From positions 116,522 to 154,955 of the forward strand of contig NZ_BBPQ01000013.1 in NCBI RefSeq assembly GCF_000787855.1: DNA of 38,434 nt, given 5' to 3'. The first letter of the stretch is position 1. Every line of letters begins with the position of its first letter. Of this stretch, positions 17,446 to 38,434 are shown piece by piece. The stretch comes from Streptacidiphilus anmyonensis (GTDB taxonomy: Bacteria; Actinomycetota; Actinomycetes; Streptomycetales; Streptomycetaceae). A program made the position numbers and the translations under genes. The notes beneath the pieces were generated by a model that made no database searches, was not told where the DNA came from, and saw nothing but the letters and a program-made list of their open reading frames with translations.

Positions 17446-18192
17446 GTGAACGCAGTACGGATCGAACGCTCCGGGCCGGTGTGGACCGTGGTCCTCTCCC
17501 GCCCGGAGCGGCGCAACGCCGTGGACGGCCCGACCGCGGACGCGCTGTACCGCGCGTTCGCGGAGTTCGACGCGGACGCGAGCGCGTCGGTCGCCGTCCT
17601 GTGGGGCGAGGGCGGCACGTTCTGCGCCGGCGCGGACCTCAAGGAGGCCGACGGCCCGCGGGGCAACACCCTCTCCCCCGACGGCCCCGGCCCGATGGGC
17701 CCCAGCCGGATGCGCCTGGGCAAGCCCGTCATCGCGGCGGTCGCCGGCCACGCGGTGGCCGGCGGACTGGAGTTGGCCGCCTGGTGCGACCTGCGGGTGG
17801 CCGCGGAGGACGCGGTCTTCGGGGTCTTCTGCAGGCGCTGGGGCGTCCCGTTGATCGACGGCGGCACCGTCCGTCTGCCGCGCCTGATCGGCGCGGGCCG
17901 CGCGATGGACCTGATCCTCACCGGCCGTGAGGTCCCGGCGACGGAAGCGCTGGCGATCGGGCTGGTCGACCGCGTCGTCCCGGCGGGGACGGAACGGCAG
18001 GCGGCGGAGGATCTCGCCCGCGAGATCGCCGCTCTGCCTCAGACCTGCCTGCGCAACGACCGCCTCTCGGCCCTGGAGGCCGAGGACCTCCCCGAGCAGG
18101 CGGCACTGGCCAACGAGTTCCAACGCGGCATGTCCACCCTCCAGTCCGAGGGCCTCCCCGGCGCCGCCGCGTTCCGAAACCGACGCGGCTGA
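17446..18192 (+). CDS. Enoyl-CoA hydratase/isomerase (crotonase) family protein
   Basis: A 248-aa crotonase-fold protein. The oxyanion-hole segments are GGTFCAGADLKE (about 57-68) and GHAVAGGLELAAWCDLR (about 102-118), and GVFCRRWGVPLIDGGTVRLPRL follows the family pattern. The usual catalytic Glu pair of hydratases is not clearly present: the second position falls in WGVPLIDGG, where Asp is found, so the exact reaction is uncertain. The GTG at 17446 was chosen because the ORF further upstream is a shadow; GTG 17437 is an alternative. It sits 44 bp after the cholesterol-oxidase-like gene and is probably co-transcribed, which hints at sterol or fatty-acid breakdown (inference). Confidence 0.88.
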   Translation: MNAVRIERSGPVWTVVLSRPERRNAVDGPTADALYRAFAEFDADASASVAVLWGEGGTFCAGADLKEADGPRGNTLSPDGPGPMGPSRMRLGKPVIAAVAGHAVAGGLELAAWCDLRVAAEDAVFGVFCRRWGVPLIDGGTVRLPRLIGAGRAMDLILTGREVPATEALAIGLVDRVVPAGTERQAAEDLAREIAALPQTCLRNDRLSALEAEDLPEQAALANEFQRGMSTLQSEGLPGAAAFRNRRG

Positions 18193-18344
18193 CAACGAAC
18201 CGCGAGGCCGAGACACACGCTGCGGCGGAGCCGCAGGCCGGGAGACGGGCCGAGGGGCGAGGGCGAGCGGCGAGCGGCGAGACGGGAGGGAGGCAGGCCC
18301 GAGAGTCGAGGGCGACGCCGGGCGACGGAGGCGGGGATCAGGAC

Positions 18345-18393
18345 GGCACGACCAAGCCAGCGCCCCGAGCCAGGCCGGCAAGCCAGGCGGGAG
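18345..18393 (+). repeat. Direct repeat copy A (49 bp)
   Basis: This block contains ACCAAGCCAGCGCCCCG and, further on, AAGCCAGGCGGGAG. It matches copy B at 18487-18534 at all but a few positions (for example GAGCCAGGCC against GGCCAGGTC). The distance between copies is 142 bp. Confidence 0.8.
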
Positions 18394-18486
18394 CCGAGGG
18401 CCAAGGCCGAGCGGCGCACCCGGCGACGGAGCCGCAGGCCGAGCGACGAGGCGACACCAAGCGACCGCGCTGGCGGGAACCAGCGC

Positions 18487-18534
18487 GGCCCGACCAAGCC
18501 AGCGCCCCGGCCAGGTCGGCAGGCCAGGCGGGAG
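18487..18534 (+). repeat. Direct repeat copy B (48 bp)
   Basis: The second copy of the block at 18345-18393, in the same orientation, one base shorter. Such local duplications suggest past slippage or recombination in the spacer. Confidence 0.8.
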
Positions 18535-18770
18535 ACGGGGCGTGAGACGGGGCGGGTGGGGGGCTCGAGGTCGGAGGGGTGGGGTCTCAGCTCGCCCGGG
18601 GCGAGTTCCGGCGGGAGGGCCGGAGGGCGGCTGACGTGGGGACATGTCCGTTGTCCCGAGGCTGGATCGGACTGCTTGCGCGGGCGCCAGGCACCCCGGT
18701 TCGTCGTGTGATCCGTGCGGCCTAGAATCTGCGCCGGACGTAGCCACGAAGACTCGACGGGGGACCCGCC

Positions 18771-23977: not shown

Positions 23978-24475
23978 GTGAACGCGGGGGATGACGGGAT
24001 CCGCTACCTGCGCGGCGACGCGACGGCGCCGCAGGGCAAGGGACCCAAGGTGATCGCGCACGTCTGCAACGACCTGGGCGGCTGGGGCAAGGGCTTCGTG
24101 GTGGCCCTCTCCCGGCGCTGGCCCGAGCCGGAGGCGGCGTACCGGAGATGGCACCGGGAGCGGGCGCGGAACGACTTCGGGCTGGGCGCCGTCCAGCTCG
24201 TACCGGTCGGTCGGGCCGAGCAGCAGCTCTGGGTCGCCAACATGGTGGGCCAGCGCGGCATCCGCACCGGCAGCAAGGGTGTGCCCGTGCGCTACGAGGC
24301 GATCGAACAGGCGCTGATCAGCCTCGCACCGCAGGTGCTGGAGTTGCGCGCGTCGGTGCACATGCCGCGGATCGGCTGCGGGCTCGCCGGCGGTCGGTGG
24401 GAGCGGGTCGAGCCGCTGGTCCGGCATGCCCTCGTCGCGCAGGGCGTGCCGGTCACGGTCTACGACTACGACTGA
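23978..24475 (+). CDS. Macro-domain protein (ADP-ribose binding or hydrolysis)
   Basis: A 165-aa protein consisting of one macro domain. IRYLRGDATAP, then KVIAHVCNDLGGWGKGF, LWVANMVGQ and VHMPRIGCGLAGGRWE match the ADP-ribose pocket strands and loops of the family (for example the Poa1p/TARG-like branch that acts on ADP-ribose phosphates or ADP-ribosyl esters). The GTG at 23978 lies 7 nt after a TAACGT -10-like element (23965-23970), which suggests a leaderless mRNA; GTG 23954 is a weaker alternative inside the inverted repeat. Catalytic residues cannot be assigned with certainty. Confidence 0.88.
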   Translation: MNAGDDGIRYLRGDATAPQGKGPKVIAHVCNDLGGWGKGFVVALSRRWPEPEAAYRRWHRERARNDFGLGAVQLVPVGRAEQQLWVANMVGQRGIRTGSKGVPVRYEAIEQALISLAPQVLELRASVHMPRIGCGLAGGRWERVEPLVRHALVAQGVPVTVYDYD

Positions 24476-24503
24476 GCCGCCGGAGCCTGAGACCGGCCCC
24501 GGA

Positions 24504-25412
24504 CTACGAGGTCCCCGTCTCGTGCCAGTGGACCAGGGCGCGGACGACCGCGCTCAGGCGGCCGTTCATCCAGGCGGTGGCGAGGGTGCCGGCGACGAAG
24601 CGCTCGGCGCGGAGGACGGAGGTCGCCGTGCGGACGGCGTCGGCGGGGGTGAGGGTGCCGTCCGTGGCGAGGAGCGGGTAGCTGAAGGCGTTCCAGTCGT
24701 ACGCGGGCCGCACCGCGCCGACCGCGTCGAGCGAGGTGGCCACCGCGCCGACGCGGGGGCCGTACACCCAGTGCCGGTCGTCCCAGCGCGCGTCGGCGTC
24801 CTGCACCGCCCAGCCGGAGGCGAACTCGCTGAGTCGCCCCCATGCCCCCGATGCGCCGTCGAGGCCTGCCAGCAGCTCCTCGTCCGTCGGATCGCCCTCG
24901 CCGCCGTCGCCCGCCGGCAGAGGCGCCTGCACGTCGGGGTGGAGCAGACGACGCATGCGCTCGTACTTCGCCGTCAGGCGGGACCGCTTCGCGGCGTCGG
25001 GGATGAGGGCCAGGCGTCGCGCCGCGGAGTTGCTGGCCAGGTCGGCGTCCTTGACGGTGACCGCGCCAGGGGTGGCCAGGATGCGCGCGGTGTAGTCGCC
25101 GAGGGCTTCGCCCTCGCGTCGGGTGAGCGCGAGCACGATGTCCTTCGTACGCTTCGGAAGCGCCGCCGCGGCGAGCCACTCGGCCGTCAGCACGCCGTCC
25201 TCGACGGCGTCGTGCAGCCACGCCGCCGCGATCTGCGCCTCGTCGCCGCCGTGCCGGGCGGTGCCTGCGGCGACCTCCGCCAGGTGCCCGACGTACGGGC
25301 GGCCCGCTTTGTCGACCTGTTCGGAGTGCCCGGTGCGGGCGATCGCCTCGACCTCGGCGAGGGACAGCGGCGGCCGTGTGGAATCCTCGGCCTCCGGCAT
25401 GCGCTGCGGCAT
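24504..25412 (-). CDS. RelA/SpoT-type HD phosphohydrolase with extra C-terminal domain
   Basis: A 302-aa protein. Residues about 15-155 form an HD domain of the (p)ppGpp hydrolase (MESH1/SpoT) kind: H43 in GRPYVGH, HDAVED (67-72) and KDADLASN (121-128) supply all the Mn-binding and catalytic positions of that family. There is no synthetase or TGS domain. The C-terminal part (about 190-302), with AYDWNAFSYPLL and AERFVAGTLATAWMNG, looks like a separate small domain, perhaps DUF6508 (recalled, not verified). It may be a small alarmone hydrolase. AAGGGG precedes the ATG at 25412. It is convergent with the macro-domain gene, 28 bp apart. Confidence 0.82.
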   Translation of the reverse strand: MPQRMPEAEDSTRPPLSLAEVEAIARTGHSEQVDKAGRPYVGHLAEVAAGTARHGGDEAQIAAAWLHDAVEDGVLTAEWLAAAALPKRTKDIVLALTRREGEALGDYTARILATPGAVTVKDADLASNSAARRLALIPDAAKRSRLTAKYERMRRLLHPDVQAPLPAGDGGEGDPTDEELLAGLDGASGAWGRLSEFASGWAVQDADARWDDRHWVYGPRVGAVATSLDAVGAVRPAYDWNAFSYPLLATDGTLTPADAVRTATSVLRAERFVAGTLATAWMNGRLSAVVRALVHWHETGTS

Positions 25413-25534
25413 CTGGTCGAGCCCCTTCCCGGTTCGGTGATCCCCTACCCGTCCAGTGTGGCGCGGGCAGCGGCGGGAACGGTCGGAGACACGGTGGGGC
25501 GCCCTGTCCTGTCGACGTGCTCATGGCGGGCATC

Positions 25535-25556
25535 GGCCGTCGGCCTGCCGACGGCC
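25535..25556. promoter_or_regulatory. 22-bp near-perfect dyad upstream of the MBL-fold gene
   Basis: GGCCGTCGGC (25535-25544) and GCCGACGGCC (25547-25556) are perfectly complementary with only two bases between them. It sits midway in the 246-bp divergent spacer between the HD and MBL genes, about 100 nt from each start, and is a good operator candidate; as RNA it would form a hairpin. Confidence 0.5.
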
Positions 25557-25575
25557 GGCTCTGCTCGGCAGGCCC

Positions 25576-25609
25576 GCTGGTCTGCTCTGCTGGTCTGCTG
25601 GTCTGCTCT
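25576..25609 (+). repeat. Short tandem repeats of GCTGGTCT / GCTCT
   Basis: GCTGGTCTGCTCT (25576-25588), GCTGGTCT (25589-25596) and GCTGGTCTGCTCT (25597-25609) follow each other directly, about 50 nt before the MBL gene start. No function is evident. Confidence 0.7.
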
Positions 25610-25658
25610 GCGGACCGCGTTCGCGTCCCGGGGCGTGTTCATCGCACAATCTACGACC

Positions 25659-26711
25659 ATGAACGCCGACCGCACGGTTCAAGCCACCACCCGCATGGTT
25701 CCGGCCGGACGCACGCCCCACGCCCCGGCCCGGGGCGAGCTGCGTCCCGTCGCGGACGGCGTGCACGTCTGGCGCCCACGGCCCGGCGTCGGCTGGGGCC
25801 TGGCCAACTGCGGTCTTCTGACCGGCGGTTCGAGCGCCGCGTGGATCGACTCACCCTACGACCGGGCGCTGGCTGACGAGTTCCTCGCACTCTCGCGTCC
25901 GCTGCTCGCCCCGGACGGGGAGATCGACTGGCTGCTGGTCACCCACGGCAACGGCGACCACCTGTGGGGCTGGGAGGCGGTCCCGGACGCACGCGTCGTC
26001 TACACCCGCGCGGCCGCGGCGCAGATCGCCCACGAGCCGGACCCGTGCGACCTGCACCGGCTGGTCCACGAGACCGATCCCGACACCCTCGTCGGCTGGT
26101 ACCTGAGCCGCCATTTCGGCCGCTACCGCTGGCCGGAGACGCGGCTGCCGCAGCCCGCGTTCACCTTCGCCGGCGAGGTGGAGATAGCCGTCGGCGACAT
26201 CCCCGTCCAGCTGAGCCAGCTGCCGCCCGCGCACACCGCCGGCGACCTGCTCGCCTACCTGCCGCGCCAACGGGTCTGCTTCGGCGGCGACATCGTCTTC
26301 GCCGCGACCGAGGCGGAGGCGGGCGACCATCCCGTCCACTGGGCCGGTCCGCTCGAGAACGTGATCGACGGCTGCGACCGCGTGCTGGCCACCGGCGCGA
26401 CCGTCATCGTCCCCGGCCACGGCCCCGTCCTGGACCGCGACGGCGTCCACTCCCACCGCGACTACCTCTGCCACCTGCGCGACCGCGTCCACACCCTGCA
26501 CGCCTCGGGCATCCCCGCGCAGGATGCGGCGCGCCGCATCGCCGCGGAGAACCGCTATCCCGCGCTGCACCTGCCCGAGCGACTGTCGATCACGGTCGGC
26601 CTCCAGTACCGGCACCTGGACGCCGCCCCGCAGCGGACCATGCTGGAGCAGATGCACGCGCTGGCCCAACTGGCCTGGGAGCTGGAGCACCCCGGGGTTC
26701 CGGCCCCGTAG
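25659..26711 (+). CDS. Metallo-beta-lactamase-fold hydrolase with altered HxHxDH motif
   Basis: A 350-aa MBL-fold protein. The metal motif reads THGNGDH (95-101), so the second His of HxHxDH is Asn (N98); the other ligands are present: D100, H101, H192 in AHTAGD, D211 in FGGDIVF and H254 in VPGHGPV. The variant is also found in other actinobacterial homologues as I recall, so it is probably a natural subfamily using one metal or a changed site. The C-terminal helices (about 275-350) resemble the lid of lactonase/hydrolase members. No ribosome site is visible before the ATG at 25659; CACAAT at 25644-25649 could be a -10 element giving a nearly leaderless mRNA. The substrate is unknown. Confidence 0.85.
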   Translation: MNADRTVQATTRMVPAGRTPHAPARGELRPVADGVHVWRPRPGVGWGLANCGLLTGGSSAAWIDSPYDRALADEFLALSRPLLAPDGEIDWLLVTHGNGDHLWGWEAVPDARVVYTRAAAAQIAHEPDPCDLHRLVHETDPDTLVGWYLSRHFGRYRWPETRLPQPAFTFAGEVEIAVGDIPVQLSQLPPAHTAGDLLAYLPRQRVCFGGDIVFAATEAEAGDHPVHWAGPLENVIDGCDRVLATGATVIVPGHGPVLDRDGVHSHRDYLCHLRDRVHTLHASGIPAQDAARRIAAENRYPALHLPERLSITVGLQYRHLDAAPQRTMLEQMHALAQLAWELEHPGVPAP

Positions 26712-29539: not shown

Positions 29540-30856
29540 GTGTGGCCGGTGCTCACTCCACCCACCTCGGCCTCCCCGCTGCGTCGGGCGGGCTTTCGCT
29601 GGTTCTTCGCCGGACAGACCGTCTCCCTCCTCGGCAGCTCGATGGCGCCCGTGGCGCTGGCCTTCGCCGTGCTCGACGCCTCGGGTCGCGCGGGCGACCT
29701 CGGCATCGTGCTGGCCGTGCGGATGGTGCCGCTGCTCGGCTTCCTGCTGATCGGCGGCGCGGTCGCGGACCGGCTGCCGCGACGGGCCGTGCTCGTCGTG
29801 TCCAACCTCGGCGCGGCGCTGACCCAGGGCGCCGTCGCGACGCTGCTGCTGACCGGGCACTACGCCCTGGGCACGATCGCCGGCCTGGAGTTCCTCAACG
29901 GACTGCTCTCCGCGTTCACCACGCCGGCCCTGCGCGGACTGGTGCCGGAGCTGGTCCCCTCCGACCAGCTCCAGCGCGCGAACGCGCTGCTCGGGACGGT
30001 GCGCAACGGAAGCAAGGTGCTCGGCCCGAGCATGTCCGGCCTCCTCGTCGTGGCGACCGGCGGCGGCGCGGCCATCGCGATCGACGCCTTCAGCTATCTC
30101 CTCGCGGCGGGGTGTCTGTGGCGTCTCCCGTCGCGGGCGTCGACTCCACCGGGTTCCGGTGCGGACCCGGCCGGAGCCGCCCGGCGTCACCTCGCGCGCG
30201 ACCTGCGGGAGGGCTGGTCGGCGTTCCGCGGCACGGGCTGGCTCTGGCCGGTGACGCTGGCCTTCTGCGGCCTGAACCTGGTGCAGACCGGCACGTGGCA
30301 GATCCTCGGCCCGGAGCTCACCGCGCGGGCGGGCTCGGCCGCGACGTGGGGCCTGCTGCTGAGCGCACGCGGCGCCGGCATGCTGCTGATGAGCAGCGTG
30401 CTCTACCGACTGTACGTGCGACGGCTTCTGGCGTTCAGTCAACTGATGAGCATGCTGGTCGGGTTGCCGCTGCTGGCGCTCGGCGTGCGGCTTCCCGTGC
30501 CCTGGCTTCTCGTCATCGCCTTCGTCGCGGGCACGGGTTCGGCCGTCTCGTCGATCGGCTGGGACACCTCGCTTCAGGAGCACGTCCCGCGGCGTCTGCT
30601 GTCCCGGGTCGCCGCGTACGACGACCTCTTCTCCTACATCGCCATTCCCATCGGGCAGTTGTCGGTGGGACCGGCCTCGGCCGCGTTCGGGCCGTACACC
30701 GCGACCACGGTCTCGGGCCTCGCCTCCGTGGCGTTCGCCGCCCTCCCGCTCACCCTCCGGTCGGTACGGCGGCTTCCGCACTCATCCCCCGAGCAGCGAA
30801 CGTCCGAGCCTCCGACGTCCGAGCCGACCCCGGCCACCGCCCCTGGATCGCGCTGA
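29540..30856 (+). CDS. MFS transporter (EntS/MFS_3-like)
   Basis: A 438-aa protein with about 12 hydrophobic segments. FRWFFAGQTVSLLGSSMAPVA near the start and GGAVADRLPRR (about 70-80) in the first cytoplasmic loop are typical of the MFS_3 exporters that include EntS and macrolide pumps. The C-terminal tail is Ser/Pro/Thr-rich. The start is GTG 29540; GTG 29549 is possible, and neither has a strong ribosome site. It is divergent from an ArsR-like regulator with a dyad between, so an inducible efflux pump is likely; the substrate is unknown. Confidence 0.87.
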   Translation: MWPVLTPPTSASPLRRAGFRWFFAGQTVSLLGSSMAPVALAFAVLDASGRAGDLGIVLAVRMVPLLGFLLIGGAVADRLPRRAVLVVSNLGAALTQGAVATLLLTGHYALGTIAGLEFLNGLLSAFTTPALRGLVPELVPSDQLQRANALLGTVRNGSKVLGPSMSGLLVVATGGGAAIAIDAFSYLLAAGCLWRLPSRASTPPGSGADPAGAARRHLARDLREGWSAFRGTGWLWPVTLAFCGLNLVQTGTWQILGPELTARAGSAATWGLLLSARGAGMLLMSSVLYRLYVRRLLAFSQLMSMLVGLPLLALGVRLPVPWLLVIAFVAGTGSAVSSIGWDTSLQEHVPRRLLSRVAAYDDLFSYIAIPIGQLSVGPASAAFGPYTATTVSGLASVAFAALPLTLRSVRRLPHSSPEQRTSEPPTSEPTPATAPGSR

Positions 30857-30876
30857 CCCGGTGACGGTTCGGGTCA
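30854..30876. terminator. Hairpin between convergent MFS and DUF4232 genes
   Basis: TGACCCG (30854-30860, containing the MFS stop) pairs with CGGGTCA (30870-30876) across 9 nt. CGGGTCA occurs again at 30881-30887 over the stop of the convergent gene, so alternative pairing is possible. Confidence 0.5.
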
Positions 30877-30884
30877 CGTTCGGG

Positions 30885-31613
30885 TCACTGCTGGTCGCCG
30901 GTGGTGCCGGAGACGACCGGGTGGATCTGGAGGGTGCAGGCGTTGGGCTGGAGCGAGGCGAGGCGGGTGGAGGTCTTGGTCCCGGGCGGGGTGACCAGGA
31001 CGCCGTCGTAGGTCGGGCAGGAGGTGGCGTTGCCCTCGGGCACGTCGGTCCACTCGAGCATGGCGGAGACCCGGCCGTTGGCGGGGACCGTGATGGTCGA
31101 CGGGGCGGTCGCGCCCTGGGCCAGGCCGCCCGTGAAGCCGCGGAGGGTGCGCGTGGCCTGCACGACCTGGTGCCCGCCGGAGTCGAGGCCGGCGACGCCC
31201 GGGTACCCGTAGAGGGTGCAGGACTTGCCGCTGACGTTGGTGAAGAGGAGAGCGACCTCCAGGTGCCCGGTGGCGGCGCCGCCCGTACCGACGCCGACGG
31301 TGACCTGCGAGCCGGTGCAGGCGGCGAGGCCTCCGCCGGTCGAGCCGCCAGTCGTCGAGCCGCCCGCGGTGCCGCCGGACGTGGAACCGCCCGCGGTGCC
31401 GCCCGTGGCGCCGCCGGAGGTGGAACCGGTCGTCCCGCCCGTCCCGGTGGAGCCCGTCGAGCCGTTCGCGCCGGCGGACGCGGAGGCGGAGCCGCCGGAC
31501 GAAGCGGAGGTGGTCGGTCCGCCCGCGGAGCCGGTGGAGCTGCTGCAGGCGGAGAGGGTGAGGCAGAGGGCCGAGGCCGCGAGTATGCCGCCGAATGCGG
31601 AGAAGCTCTTCAT
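30885..31613 (-). CDS. DUF4232 lipoprotein with Gly/Ser/Thr linker
   Basis: A 242-aa predicted lipoprotein. The signal ends in the lipobox LSAC (20-23). Then comes a low-complexity Gly/Ser/Thr linker of about 75 residues, with repeats such as GGTAGGSTSGGTAGGST. The C-terminal domain (about 99-242) fits DUF4232: LAACTGSQVTVGVG, ALLFTNVSGKSCTLYGYPG and a final Cys in NACTLQIHP, probably an Ig-like secreted fold of unknown role. The ATG at 31613 matches the signal peptide well but has no clear ribosome site. It is convergent with the MFS gene. Confidence 0.87.
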   Translation of the reverse strand: MKSFSAFGGILAASALCLTLSACSSSTGSAGGPTTSASSGGSASASAGANGSTGSTGTGGTTGSTSGGATGGTAGGSTSGGTAGGSTTGGSTGGGLAACTGSQVTVGVGTGGAATGHLEVALLFTNVSGKSCTLYGYPGVAGLDSGGHQVVQATRTLRGFTGGLAQGATAPSTITVPANGRVSAMLEWTDVPEGNATSCPTYDGVLVTPPGTKTSTRLASLQPNACTLQIHPVVSGTTGDQQ

Positions 31614-35182: not shown

Positions 35183-35395
35183 TCAGGACGGCTCGGCGGC
35201 GAGCATGCGCTGACGCAGGCTGAGGGGGCGCATGTCCGTCCAGACCTGGTCGATGTGGTCGAGGCAGGACTGGCGGGGGCCCTTGGTGCCCTCCGCGTGC
35301 CAGCCGGCGGGCAGTTCTCGGTCGGCGCGCCAGATGGAGTACTGCTCCTCGTCGTTGCGGACGACGAGGTACTCGGGTTCCTGAACGGTGGTCAT
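35183..35395 (-). CDS. MbtH-like protein (NRPS adenylation partner)
   Basis: A 70-aa protein of typical family length. The signature is nearly complete: NDEEQYSIW (14-22), ELPAGW (27-32), CLDHI and VWTDMRPLS (51-59). MbtH proteins bind adenylation domains and are needed for their solubility and activity. GAGGAG precedes the ATG at 35395. It is divergent from the LanB-like/NRPS genes, separated by 286 bp, so it very likely belongs to that cluster and partners the adenylation domain at 38036. Confidence 0.95.
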   Translation of the reverse strand: MTTVQEPEYLVVRNDEEQYSIWRADRELPAGWHAEGTKGPRQSCLDHIDQVWTDMRPLSLRQRMLAAEPS

Positions 35396-35681
35396 GCGCT
35401 GGGCTCCTCCCCGGTCGGGTCGATGGACGGTCGCCGCGGCGACGGGCCCAGCGTGCCCGGGGGCGGGTGGGCGCGGACAGGGGCGAACACGCGGTGGGCG
35501 TCGCGGTCGTGACTGCCGGTTCTTCTCTGTCGCCGCGGTGCGCGGCGACGGCAGGGTGCTTGAAGGCCGGATCCGGCCGTCAGCGGTCCGGCCGTGAGTC
35601 GGTCCGCCGCGGCGAACCGGGTGGACCGGCCGCCGCCCCGACCCTCACGACCCTCACCGCACCCATGGAAGGAGTCCCGCC
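35396..35681. promoter_or_regulatory. Divergent promoter region of the NRPS cluster with three related dyads
   Basis: This 286-bp spacer holds no gene. Three dyads share a CGCCGCG/CGCGGCG core: GTCGCCGCGGCGAC (35430-35443, perfect), GTCGCCGCG-GTG-CGCGGCGAC (35529-35549, perfect with 3-nt centre) and GGTCCGCCGCGGCGAACC (35601-35618, one mismatched pair). A separate perfect palindrome GGCCGGATCCGGCC is at 35565-35578. AAGGAG at 35671-35676 is the ribosome site of the LanB-like gene. The repeated dyads could be operators for a cluster regulator. Confidence 0.6.
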
Positions 35682-38036
35682 ATGCCGTCGGACGACCCCG
35701 AGAACGTGCTGCTGCCCGGTGGGAGGTGGCGGCTGTGGGAGCACTTCGCGCTGCGCGGCCCCGGCTTCCCCGCCGAGGGCGTGCTGCGGATGGCCCCGGC
35801 CGGACTGGCCGAGGCGGCCGACAAGTTCGGCCCCGGGGACGCCCTGACCGGCCCCGACTGGGACGCGTTCGGCGCCGCGGTCGACGAGGCCGCGGTCGAG
35901 ACGGCCCGCCGGCTCCAGACCATCGCCGCCACGCCGCGCTTCCGCGCCGCCGTGGCCTGGCAGAACCCGGCGGTGCTGCGCACCGGCATCGCGCCGTTCC
36001 TGAACTGGACCCCGACCGCCGCGAGCCGCACCAGCATGCCGCGCCAGCGCGAGGAGTTGGTGGCGCACTACTGGCAGCGCTTCTGCGTCAAGAACGACAC
36101 CATCGGCTTCTTCGGCCCGGTCGGCTGGGGCCGCTGGGACCTCGCCACCCGGGGTGTCGAGGTCGCGCCCGGCGCGCCGGGGCAGGGGTTCCTGGCGGCC
36201 TCCCGCGTGTACTTCGCCAGTTGGGGCATCGACGCGCTGGCGAAGTCGCTGGGCGAGGACCCGGAGCTGATGGCCTGGATGCCGCCCTACCGGATCTCCT
36301 TCGTCCGCGTCGTCGGCGAGACGGTCCGCGTGCCCGGCCGACCGCCGCAGCCGATCGCCGACCTCGACCGCGCGGTGCTGGAGCTCTGCGACGGCACCCG
36401 GACCTCCGCCGCGATCGCCGAGGCCCTGGGCGAGAGCCCGGAGGCGCTGCTCGAGGCGGTGCGCCGACTGGCCCGCAAGCGCTGGGTGCGGTGGCAGGTG
36501 GACGTCCCCGCGAGCACCTACCCCGAGCAGGCGCTGCGCGCCGTGCTGGAGCGGGTCGGCGACGCCGGCCCGCGCGAGCGGGCGCTGGCCAAGCTGGACG
36601 TGCTGGAGCGCGGCCGGGACGCCGTGCAGGCCGCCGGTCTGGACGCGGACGCACTGACCGCCGCTGTGGCCGCGCTGGAGGCCGACTTCGCGGAGCTGAC
36701 CGCGACCGCGGCGCAGCGTGCCAAGGGCGAGCGGACCGCGCCCTGCCGCGGCCTGGTCTACAGCGACTCGCGCCGCGCCGCGACGGCGACGCTGGGCACC
36801 GCCCTGCTGGACGAACTCGCCCCGCTGGAACTGTGCCTGACCGCGGCGCGCTGGATGACCAACCGCTTCGCCGAGGCGATGGAGACCCGCCTGCGCGAGG
36901 CGTGGCAGCGGCTGCGCGAACGTGACGGCGACGGAAGCGGGGCCGTCGACCTGGGCTCGCTGTGGCTGGAGTGCCTGCCCTCGCCGCACCCGATGTCCAA
37001 GGCCGACATCACCGCCATCCAGGCCGAGCTGCGCGCCAAGTGGGCTCGCATCCTGGAGGTTCCGTCGGGCGTGCGGCGGGTGCGGCTGAGCTCGGCGGAC
37101 CTAGCCGACCGCGTCGCGGAGGAGTTCGGCGAGCCGGGCGCCGGCTGGTCGCTGGCCCGCTACTTCAGCCCCGACCTGCTGGTGCTGGCCGAGAACGCCG
37201 GCGCGGTCGCGCGGGGCGAGTTCGAGCTGGTGCTCGGCGAGATGCACTGCGCCCTCAACACCATGGGCGCCTCGCTCTTCGTCCACCAGCACCCCGACCG
37301 CGACGAGCTGATCGCGGAGACCTCGCGGGACTTCGCCGGCCCCCGCCTGCTGCCGATGCTGGCCAAGGAACTGCCGATCAAGTGGTCGGCGCGCAGCCGT
37401 CCGTCCCTGGACCGGCCCGAGGACCACGTGGTGGCGCTGATCGACCAGACCGGCGACCCGTACCGACCGCACACGGCGCTCAGCGCCGACGTGGAGGTCG
37501 TCGAGGGCCCGGACGGCCGCCTCCAGGTCGTGCTGCCCGACGGCACGCGCTACCCGCTGCTGGACGCCTACGCCAACACCCTCACCCAGAAGGTGATGGA
37601 CCGGTTCACCATCCACCCCGAGGGCGACCACACACCGCGGATCACCGTCGACAAGGTGGTAGTCGCCCGCGAGACCTGGCAGGTCCCCGTCGCCGAACTG
37701 GCCTTCGCGGAGGAGAGGACGGAGGCCGGACGCTTCGTCAGGGCCCGTCAGTGGCAACGCGAGCGTGAACTGCCGCGCTTCGTCTTCGTGGTCTCGCCGA
37801 CCGAACCGCGCCCGTTCTACGTCGACTTCGAGAGCCCCGTCTACCTCACCATCCTGGCGAAGGCGGCGCGCCGGCTGGCCCGCAGGGACCCGGACGCCCG
37901 CCTGAAGATCAGCGAGATGCTGCCCACGCCCGAGCAGGCGTGGCTGACCGACGACGAGGGCCGCGCCTACACCAGCGAGCTGCGTTTCGTGGCCGTGGAC
38001 CAGACGGCGCCGGGCGTCCGGGACGGGGGGTCGTGA
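35682..38036 (+). CDS. LanB-like (lantibiotic dehydratase N-terminal domain) protein
   Basis: 784 aa, preceded by AAGGAG. The pattern fits the glutamylation domain of LanB dehydratases (PF04738): FCVKNDTIGFFGPVGWG (134-150) lies where classical LanB has a STPFGLFAG-type motif, and the end, LPRFVFVVSP...YVDFESP...LKISEMLP...SELRFVAV, fits the domain's final strands. Classical LanB is about 1,000 aa with a C-terminal elimination domain, which is absent here. Such short forms are glutamylating partners of split dehydratases or PEARL-type enzymes that add amino acids from aminoacyl-tRNA. A winged-helix-like stretch at 225-270 (ELCDGTRTSAAIAEAL) resembles a peptide-binding fold. The stop overlaps the NRPS start, so both are co-translated. 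Its substrate may be a peptide or a carrier-bound chain (inference). Confidence 0.8.
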   Translation: MPSDDPENVLLPGGRWRLWEHFALRGPGFPAEGVLRMAPAGLAEAADKFGPGDALTGPDWDAFGAAVDEAAVETARRLQTIAATPRFRAAVAWQNPAVLRTGIAPFLNWTPTAASRTSMPRQREELVAHYWQRFCVKNDTIGFFGPVGWGRWDLATRGVEVAPGAPGQGFLAASRVYFASWGIDALAKSLGEDPELMAWMPPYRISFVRVVGETVRVPGRPPQPIADLDRAVLELCDGTRTSAAIAEALGESPEALLEAVRRLARKRWVRWQVDVPASTYPEQALRAVLERVGDAGPRERALAKLDVLERGRDAVQAAGLDADALTAAVAALEADFAELTATAAQRAKGERTAPCRGLVYSDSRRAATATLGTALLDELAPLELCLTAARWMTNRFAEAMETRLREAWQRLRERDGDGSGAVDLGSLWLECLPSPHPMSKADITAIQAELRAKWARILEVPSGVRRVRLSSADLADRVAEEFGEPGAGWSLARYFSPDLLVLAENAGAVARGEFELVLGEMHCALNTMGASLFVHQHPDRDELIAETSRDFAGPRLLPMLAKELPIKWSARSRPSLDRPEDHVVALIDQTGDPYRPHTALSADVEVVEGPDGRLQVVLPDGTRYPLLDAYANTLTQKVMDRFTIHPEGDHTPRITVDKVVVARETWQVPVAELAFAEERTEAGRFVRARQWQRERELPRFVFVVSPTEPRPFYVDFESPVYLTILAKAARRLARRDPDARLKISEMLPTPEQAWLTDDEGRAYTSELRFVAVDQTAPGVRDGGS

Positions 38037-38434
38037 TGCGCACCTTCGTGGACGAGATCGCGGCGCACGCCGCCGCGACCCCGGAGCGGGTGGCGCTGAC
38101 CACACCGGACGGAGAGGTCAGCTACCGCGAGCTCGCCGGGCGGATCGACGCCGCGGCTGCCCTGCTGCGCGCCGCGGGGGCCGGGCCGGAGCGGGTCTGC
38201 GCGGTGGCCGTGGAACGCGGCCCGGACGCGGTGGTGGCCATGGCCGCCGTGCTGCGCGCCGGGGCGGCGTTCCTCACCCTCGACGTCGAGCAGCCGCCCG
38301 CGCGGCTGGCCGCGCTGGTGCGGAGCGGCGGCGCGGACCTGCTGCTCGTGGCCGACCCCGCGCTGGGCGCCCGGCTGGCGCTGCCGATCCCCGGCCCCAC
38401 GGTGCTGCTCGGCGCGGAGGCGCCGGCGCCGACC
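38036..38434 (+). CDS. NRPS adenylation domain, 5' part (continues beyond window)
   Basis: 133 codons are visible from ATG 38036, open to the window end. The ATG overlaps the preceding stop (TGATG). The protein begins MRTFVDEIAAHAAATPERVAL, then VSYREL (core A1) and VLRAGAAFLTLDVEQPPARL (core A2 region), the usual beginning of an adenylation domain. No condensation domain comes first, so it is either a loading module or a stand-alone amino-acid-activating enzyme. Substrate-code residues lie beyond the edge. GTG 38033 is an alternative start. Its MbtH partner is probably the gene at 35183-35395. Confidence 0.9.
   Translation, partial: MRTFVDEIAAHAAATPERVALTTPDGEVSYRELAGRIDAAAALLRAAGAGPERVCAVAVERGPDAVVAMAAVLRAGAAFLTLDVEQPPARLAALVRSGGADLLLVADPALGARLALPIPGPTVLLGAEAPAPT

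Follow-up and report, generated by a model that had tools for sequence, protein, structure and literature searches.

What does a LanB-like protein do when its gene is coupled to that of a nonribosomal peptide synthetase (NRPS)? This question is raised by the right-hand end of the window, the whole stretch of 38,434 nucleotides of Streptacidiphilus anmyonensis DNA that was analyzed. A sequence-only reading had called the protein a glutamylation protein and had proposed either the formation of Dha/Dhb on a carrier-bound peptide or the addition of a tRNA-derived residue. Our analysis indicates that an NRPS cluster using two PEARL-type aminoacyl-tRNA ligases, LanB1 and LanB2, most likely begins here, its first 3 kb forming the tail of the window.

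The locus and its boundaries

The left edge of the cluster, as visible in the window, is an MbtH-like NRPS accessory gene on the minus strand (35183..35395; PF03621, 71.5 bits, cut-off 27), followed on the plus strand by the gene for LanB1, a PEARL-type LanB-fold ligase by prediction (35682..38036; 784 aa), and by the N-terminus only of a stand-alone adenylation (A) domain (38036..38434; PF00501, 74 bits). The coordinates given earlier for the LanB-like ORF, the MbtH gene and the A-domain start were correct, and the protein indeed lacks an elimination domain (PF04738, 163 bits, cut-off 28; no PF14028 match). Likewise, the TGATG junction was found as described, with the LanB1 stop codon TGA (38034-38036) overlapping the A-domain ATG (38036-38038); among 62 relative loci this junction reads TGATG in 50, ATGA in 7, GTGA in 2 and neither in 3. 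The term divergent applied to the MbtH gene holds for its orientation on the opposite strand but not for its sequence; most relatives likewise have an MbtH match close to LanB1, encoded on the opposite strand. Inspection of the translations and the ORF list also confirmed that there is no precursor-like gene between 35.2 and 38.0 kb. The NRPS gene appears cut because the window ends together with its contig (C141, 154955 bases), and the A-domain gene resumes on a second contig of the same assembly (G000:C107, 61536-62780), with about 160 bases between the aligned ends as judged on the S. melanogenes cluster.

Residues of LanB1 and the question of glutamylation

LanB1 and LanB2 were aligned with four PEARLs from an ammosamide-like cluster and with three true LanBs that have PF14028. 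Six LanB stretches had been fetched for this comparison; two (L165 and L169) were left out because no ORF passed the filter, and L168 was aligned but not counted as a true LanB because its PF14028 match lies outside the aligned ORF. The L168 sequence reads KTSPFSTF at the motif site and likewise has no E-x-R. Conservation was counted over 118 family sequences.

By alignment, the stretch HYWQR..KNDTIGFFGP (residues 129-146; 36066..36119, plus strand) comprises the tRNA-end site, Tyr130/Arg133, and, in its PEARL form, the motif that reads TPFG in LanBs. Both KNDTIGFFGP and Y130/R133 are present in 117 of the 118 family sequences, the remaining one showing a gap at Y130/R133; these two residues alone are not diagnostic for PEARLs, because true LanBs carry them too. 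The altered motif, earlier taken to mark a divergent subfamily, is identified by the alignment as the PEARL form of the TPFG site. A second stretch, SPD...LGExH (37173..37241, plus strand), contains D498 and E520 and aligns with the proposed Mg/ATP site. D498 is invariant in the family (118/118) and found in all four PEARLs and none of the three true LanBs, while E520 is Glu throughout the family (118/118), its equivalent in the four PEARLs being Glu in two, Asp in one and another residue in one, and one true LanB aligning Glu there. The C-terminal E-x-R of PEARLs (4/4 PEARLs, 0/3 true LanBs) corresponds to E766-L767-R768 (37977..37985, plus strand), and E766/R768 are conserved in 116 of the 118 sequences, the other two being gaps in LanB2 of L036 and L046. 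LanB2 of the cluster has the PEARL-type ATP-site and E-x-R residues as well. The roles assigned here to the ATP-site Asp and E-x-R follow those given for PEARLs in the available part of PMC11962472. Relative to the three true LanBs, the [R]xTPFG-type motif is absent from LanB1, which has KNDTIGFFGP and ELR instead. LanB1 is therefore most likely an ATP-dependent peptide aminoacyl-tRNA ligase (PEARL type), with predicted use of ATP and tRNA. NCBIfam holds no family for LanB1; no LanB was retrieved from PDB sequences by either single-sequence or profile searches, and nothing in a viral structure library matched at E 0.001.

As an alternative, the LanBs would use Glu-tRNA to glutamylate Ser/Thr of a peptide that is either carrier-bound or ribosomal, and the PLP enzyme or the LanM of the cluster would then eliminate the glutamate to give Dha/Dhb. 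This would be consistent with the LanB fold of LanB1, whose top matches, TbtB and GodF, are split glutamylation proteins, and with the presence in the second synthetase (NRPS2) of what we take, from A-domain codes, to be a Thr-type A domain, or a Ser-type one in the Salinispora line. However, compared with the class of NisB, MibB, TbtB and GodF, LanB1 has a replaced TPFG/TPLG motif, an E-x-R and no PF14028 partner. The own genome, with a completeness of 99.99%, contains 0 PF14028 matches, and the other 17 genomes show none at a distance of up to 250 kb from the cluster. Moreover, the LanM itself would dehydrate via phosphorylation, as is established for its class. Glutamylation and a LanB route to Dha/Dhb are thus unsupported, because LanB1 has PEARL-type residues and the own genome has no PF14028; glutamylation plus elimination inside the LanB system was rejected on the same evidence, and the wider version involving the PLP enzyme or LanM is highly improbable. 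The other proposal of the sequence-only reading, addition of a tRNA-derived residue, is supported by the PEARL-type residues of LanB1, which point to a putative ligase step.

A conserved gene run linked to the NRPS

The coupling of a stand-alone LanB-fold protein to an NRPS was borne out by a conserved unit of LanB1, stand-alone A domain, PLP enzyme, stand-alone thiolation (T) domain and LanB2, which lies alongside a four-module NRPS. In 50 of 53 loci, the A domain, PLP enzyme and T domain are lined up between the two LanBs. Three Amycolatopsis loci have the LanB pair and the PLP enzyme but neither stand-alone domain, and the T match of L042 lies on the opposite strand. The synthetases have the domain orders C-A-T-C-A-T and C-A-T-C-A-T-TE, NRPS2 being terminated by the thioesterase (TE), and are followed by genes for a P450 and an MFS exporter. 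As evidence against its view, the sequence-only reading had named a normal RiPP precursor and a LanC or SpaB_C gene nearby, together with an NRPS belonging to another cluster. The first part of this was borne out: the cluster that contains the LanBs also encodes a LanM, which has a LanC-like domain, and a candidate precursor. Nonetheless, the NRPS belongs with the LanB pair because the A domain, PLP enzyme, T domain and both LanBs constitute one conserved gene run, and for this reason the idea that NRPS and LanB gene are unrelated was rejected. In a tree of 46 chosen rows, in which long-branch warnings apply to outgroup rows, LanB1 and LanB2 formed two clades, each spanning Streptomyces, Amycolatopsis and Salinispora, so that LanB2 as a recent local copy was rejected.

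A pocket arginine, Arg239, is present in all 59 stand-alone A domains versus none of 29 modular A domains. It also occurs in two distant LanB-bearing clusters that combine a stand-alone A domain with an ACP; a methylaspartate mutase is encoded in one of them. Judging from A-domain codes, such an arginine presumably indicates an acidic substrate, and the stand-alone A domain most likely loads an acidic (Glu- or Asp-like) amino acid.

The LanM and the small peptide gene

The LanM of the cluster scored well above the TIGR03897 cut-off of 304 (own copy 627.6 bits, Salinispora copy 641 bits) and resembles class II LanMs in this score and in its dehydratase residues, all of which are in place (K, D-H-N, D-E, R, R-T). 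It differs from them in its location in an NRPS cluster and in the loss of the cyclase Zn triad C-C-H, which is D-G-R in the own copy; all 34 distinct Streptomyces-type cluster copies that were read have a broken triad. The triad is kept in the Salinispora and S. seoulensis cluster copies. The Streptomyces-type LanM lineage seems to have given up zinc-dependent cyclization. The triad is also broken in L140, a LanM outside any such cluster. For S. melanogenes, the available text of PMC7601586 lists a cluster termed 'T2PKS-lanthipeptide' that has class II cores and possibly involves this LanM. That of PMC7268733 counts no more than six clusters combining LanM with LanB and LanC, and mentions nonribosomal genes in some lanthipeptide clusters.

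A small peptide gene with a GG site and under purifying selection, which gave no credible Pfam or NCBIfam match, lies beside LanM in 24 of 30 LanM-bearing stretches. The ligases might extend the C-terminus of this ribosomal peptide, as on pearlin scaffolds, and the LanM-modified product or a piece of it might join or feed the NRPS. Such a function would be in line with this arrangement, with the proximity of LanM to LanB1, no more than 35 kb apart in 19 of 27 genomes, and with the winged-helix, RRE-like domain retained in LanB1 (residues about 197-273; 36270..36500, plus strand). However, the other 8 of the 27 genomes keep the LanB pair with no LanM near LanB1, and the last residue of the peptide is variable, without the PLALA-like end of the ammosamide-like scaffold. 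The gene adjoins LanM, not the LanBs, and is gone where LanM is missing. We consider this function quite unlikely.

Proposed pathway and comparison with known systems

We tentatively propose, with a probability of about 45%, that the two PEARL-type ligases and the NRPS work on one chain, a T-bound acidic starter being extended from aminoacyl-tRNA by the ligases and at its thioester end by the NRPS. Observed in the sequences are gene content, its conservation, the PEARL-type residues, the lack of an elimination domain in the own genome and the absence of a ureido C-domain motif among the HHxxxD motifs found. The stand-alone A domain would charge the stand-alone T domain with a Glu- or Asp-like amino acid as starter unit. 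LanB1 and LanB2 would each activate a free carboxylate with ATP, most likely the side chain of the starter, and join to it an amino acid from aminoacyl-tRNA, so that the ligase-built part of the chain would grow away from the direction of NRPS elongation. Elongation at the thioester end and release of the peptide would fall to the C-A-T-C-A-T and C-A-T-C-A-T-TE synthetases, and the P450 and the MFS exporter would follow. We infer that ATP and tRNA are used, that an acidic substrate sits on the T domain, and how the steps are ordered, as well as the part played by the PLP enzyme. Observations that speak against the proposal are the Amycolatopsis loci without the stand-alone A-T pair, the T match of L042, the gaps at E-x-R in two LanB2 sequences, the uneven conservation of E520 between PEARLs and true LanBs, the 8 genomes with no LanM near LanB1 and the broken triad of L140.

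The closest known system is SnaE (2024), which adds Thr in the NRPS-PKS pathway of the threopeptin (sna) cluster of Stackebrandtia nassauensis, according to the accessible part of PMC11212132. As described there, SnaE is likewise a LanB-annotated stand-alone protein without an elimination domain in an NRPS cluster with MbtH, and an ATP- and aminoacyl-tRNA-dependent amide formation was proposed for it. In contrast to the SnaE cluster, as far as its description goes, the present layout has two LanBs, a stand-alone A and T domain, a PLP enzyme and often a LanM. No PKS was seen among the S. melanogenes genes scanned, unlike in the SnaE pathway. Furthermore, SnaE depends on a ureido C domain with the motif EHHxxHDG (PMC11212132, in part), which was not found among the HHxxxD motifs of seven clusters, a survey covering motif-bearing C domains only. 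There is thus no sign of chain reversal, and a SnaE-like reversal through a ureido C domain was rejected.

This result also bears on a rather unlikely alternative, in which the ligases act on the carboxylate of a finished or NRPS-bound peptide and the stand-alone A-T pair is an ordinary starter supply. SnaE may act on free or carrier-bound compounds (available text of PMC11212132), the Amycolatopsis clusters keep the ligases without the A-T pair, and the TE at the end of NRPS2 would free a carboxylate. The missing EHHxxHDG motif argues against it, however, and the gene order and the LanB1-A overlap point to the A-T pair, so that ligase action with this pair is favored over action on a finished peptide. 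The PEARLs of pearlin pathways (TglB, BhaB7, AmmB) share with the present proteins the LanB fold, K-x-[DE]-T-x-x-FFGP, the D498 equivalent, E-x-R and the absence of an elimination domain, but use a ribosomal scaffold peptide encoded beside them, where the neighbors here are A, T and PLP enzyme genes (PMC11962472 and PMC12945691, both in part).

Implications

No description of the layout turned up in searches of the open-licence literature, which yielded the SnaE paper and its preprint for LanB-in-NRPS clusters. The accessible text of PMC11212132 mentions some LanB-like proteins fused to thiolation domains. LanB-annotated genes occur in about two thousand NRPS/PKS clusters, one of which is elucidated in PMC11212132. 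PEARL-like enzymes in NRPS clusters are thus already known from SnaE, and what is new here is the layout without the ureido C-domain motif; this layout is present in dozens of actinomycete genomes and is a second, distinct type beside the SnaE cluster.

It is conceivable, if unlikely, that three machineries contribute to one product: the NRPS would supply a chain, the two PEARL-type ligases would add residues from aminoacyl-tRNA, and the LanM, lacking a working cyclase site, would dehydrate a ribosomal peptide. This peptide would serve as ligase scaffold or be joined to the nonribosomal part. If true, the product would be part ribosomal and part nonribosomal, with tRNA-dependent ligases as the bridge. 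The proposed pathway itself yields a testable rule, according to which a stand-alone A domain with a pocket arginine, a stand-alone T domain and PEARL-type LanBs would together predict tRNA-derived residues on an acidic starter. Finally, true 'lantibiotic dehydratases' can be told apart from misnamed ones by KNDTIGFFGP and E-x-R.

Organization of the LanB-NRPS Cluster

The features first recognized from the sequence alone were all recovered in the window, namely a LanB-like gene, an MbtH gene and a TGATG overlap in which the ATG of an A domain overlaps the LanB1 stop codon. LanB1 (784 aa; 35682-38036, forward strand) matched PF04738 and no other Pfam family, and the MbtH gene (35183-35395) lies on the opposite strand. 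Elsewhere in the window, a 761-aa ORF (24426-26711), unrelated to the LanB cluster, contains a metallo-beta-lactamase domain across its C-terminal third and is possibly ComEC-like. Since the window ends with contig C141, it is an assembly break that truncates the NRPS. The remainder of the A domain was found at the end of contig C107 of the same genome, followed by genes for a PLP enzyme, a T domain, LanB2 and two NRPSs; further genes on this contig encode a P450, an MFS exporter, a LuxR-type regulator bearing an AAA domain, a small peptide and a LanM. Both contigs are collinear on the intact cluster of S. melanogenes, in which approximately 160 bases separate the aligned ends. Within the gene for the PLP enzyme, 262 consecutive N (30691-30952 of the combined C107 stretches L122 and L123) are flanked on both sides by an identical short sequence and look like a scaffolding gap rather than a genuine break.

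The S. melanogenes cluster encodes a stand-alone A domain without a T domain, a PALP-type PLP enzyme, LanB2, a P450, an MFS protein and two synthetases, C-A-T-C-A-T and C-A-T-C-A-T-TE; in the latter, a motif scan found no standard HHxxxDG in the second C domain. The nearest models of the PLP enzyme were serine/threonine dehydratases, with scores under their cut-offs. The same cluster genes are also annotated on plasmids of S. fungicidicus and Streptomyces sp. CL7, where an 'acyl carrier protein' separates the PLP enzyme from LanB2. An S51-type peptidase, annotated as peptidase E (17840-18580 in the related locus L124), is kept in many Streptomyces-type clusters and matched PepE and cyanophycinase models only weakly.

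A homology search returned 66 related loci, mostly from Streptomyces, with others from Streptacidiphilus, Kitasatospora, Saccharothrix, Amycolatopsis, Crossiella, Actinokineospora, Actinosynnema, Salinispora and Micromonospora. Both LanB copies occur in 53 loci (51 of the 66 plus the two plasmids), and according to the domain table 50 of these have A, PLP enzyme and T between LanB1 and LanB2; the three loci lacking A and T there are from Amycolatopsis, and one locus (L042) has its T match on the opposite strand. The LanB1/A overlap is TGATG in 50/62 loci. In a tree of 46 chosen rows, LanB1 and LanB2 formed separate clades (supports 99/92 and 100/96). Judged from this tree the duplication is old, because Streptomyces, Amycolatopsis and Salinispora are all represented in each clade. 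The Salinispora, Crossiella, Actinokineospora and S. seoulensis clusters additionally encode an ornithine-carbamoyltransferase-like enzyme and a diaminobutyrate aminotransferase, and an SbnB-like enzyme is present in those of Salinispora, Crossiella and Amycolatopsis.

Proposed Role of the LanB Pair

The initial assignment of LanB1 as a glutamylation protein was not supported, whereas its alternative, that LanB1 may add a tRNA-derived residue, is supported by residues in the sequence. PEARLs require a free carboxylate. In A-domain codes, a cation at position 239 or 278 indicates Glu or Asp, and the pocket of the stand-alone A domain was DARS[AVC]SQM in 59/59 loci; Arg239 occurred in 0 of 29 modular A domains located by motif scan in seven clusters. 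A stand-alone A domain with Arg239, together with an ACP, is likewise present in two further, more distant LanB clusters (36% and 32% identity to LanB1); one encodes a methylaspartate mutase, pointing to an acidic amino acid, and in the other the A gene is about 13 kb from the LanB gene. A plasmid of Streptomyces sp. NBC_01216 (L126:16176-25857) combines a distant LanB relative with glutamate-mutase-type genes, an ACP, a stand-alone A domain with Arg239, an ATP-grasp protein and a C domain, and looks like another, undescribed layout.

In the SnaE pathway, the free carboxylate is left by a ureido C domain with EHHxxHDG (PMC11212132). None of the HHxxxD motifs found in the seven clusters was of this type. 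From the pocket Arg239, the A-domain codes, the distant clusters and this missing motif we infer, as the weakest step of the proposal, that an acidic starter would sit on the free T domain and that LanB1 and LanB2 would act as two ligases extending its side-chain carboxylate. This system probably operates like SnaE, from which it differs in architecture and in the proposed source of the free carboxylate. Separately, an ammosamide-like cluster of Salinispora oceanensis (L160:19-18434) encodes four PEARLs and a scaffold peptide with ENKIAPLALA.

The LanM Arm

A LanM was located at most 35 kb from LanB1 in 19/27 genomes (9/11 in one set, with the present genome counted via C107, and 10/16 in another; the extent of contigs was checked). 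Among the ten of the second set, eight shared 52-83% identity with the S. flavotricini LanM, and the remaining two (37-41%) kept the zinc ligands. Alignment of 47 LanMs (55 readings, less five that duplicated a gene already read and three ending short of the cyclase site) revealed a broken C-C-H zinc triad with intact dehydratase residues in 34/34 proteins sharing at least 52% identity with the S. flavotricini LanM; the copy in the present genome (L122:3717-7430, on C107) has lost the cyclase-domain zinc site and retained the dehydratase residues. C-C-H is kept in LanMs of the Salinispora and S. seoulensis clusters, in the two 37-41% copies and in eight LanMs outside the cluster, and is not kept in another outside LanM (L140).

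A conserved gene for a small peptide of 65-85 aa adjoins LanM (L122:7534-7782 in the present genome; L124:12632-12829), found in 24 of 30 LanM-bearing stretches (23 distinct); in the S. fungicidicus and CL7 plasmids, LanM adjoins a hypothetical protein (65 and 71 aa). The peptide had no family match. Its N-terminal half is variable, and a section that follows a GG site and surrounds one invariant Cys is nearly fixed (pN/pS 0.24, 22 sequences). The SnaE paper states that lanthipeptide precursors were not identifiable in LanB-bearing NRPS clusters (PMC11212132). If the small candidate peptide is the LanM substrate, the LanM-bearing subset would be an exception to this statement.
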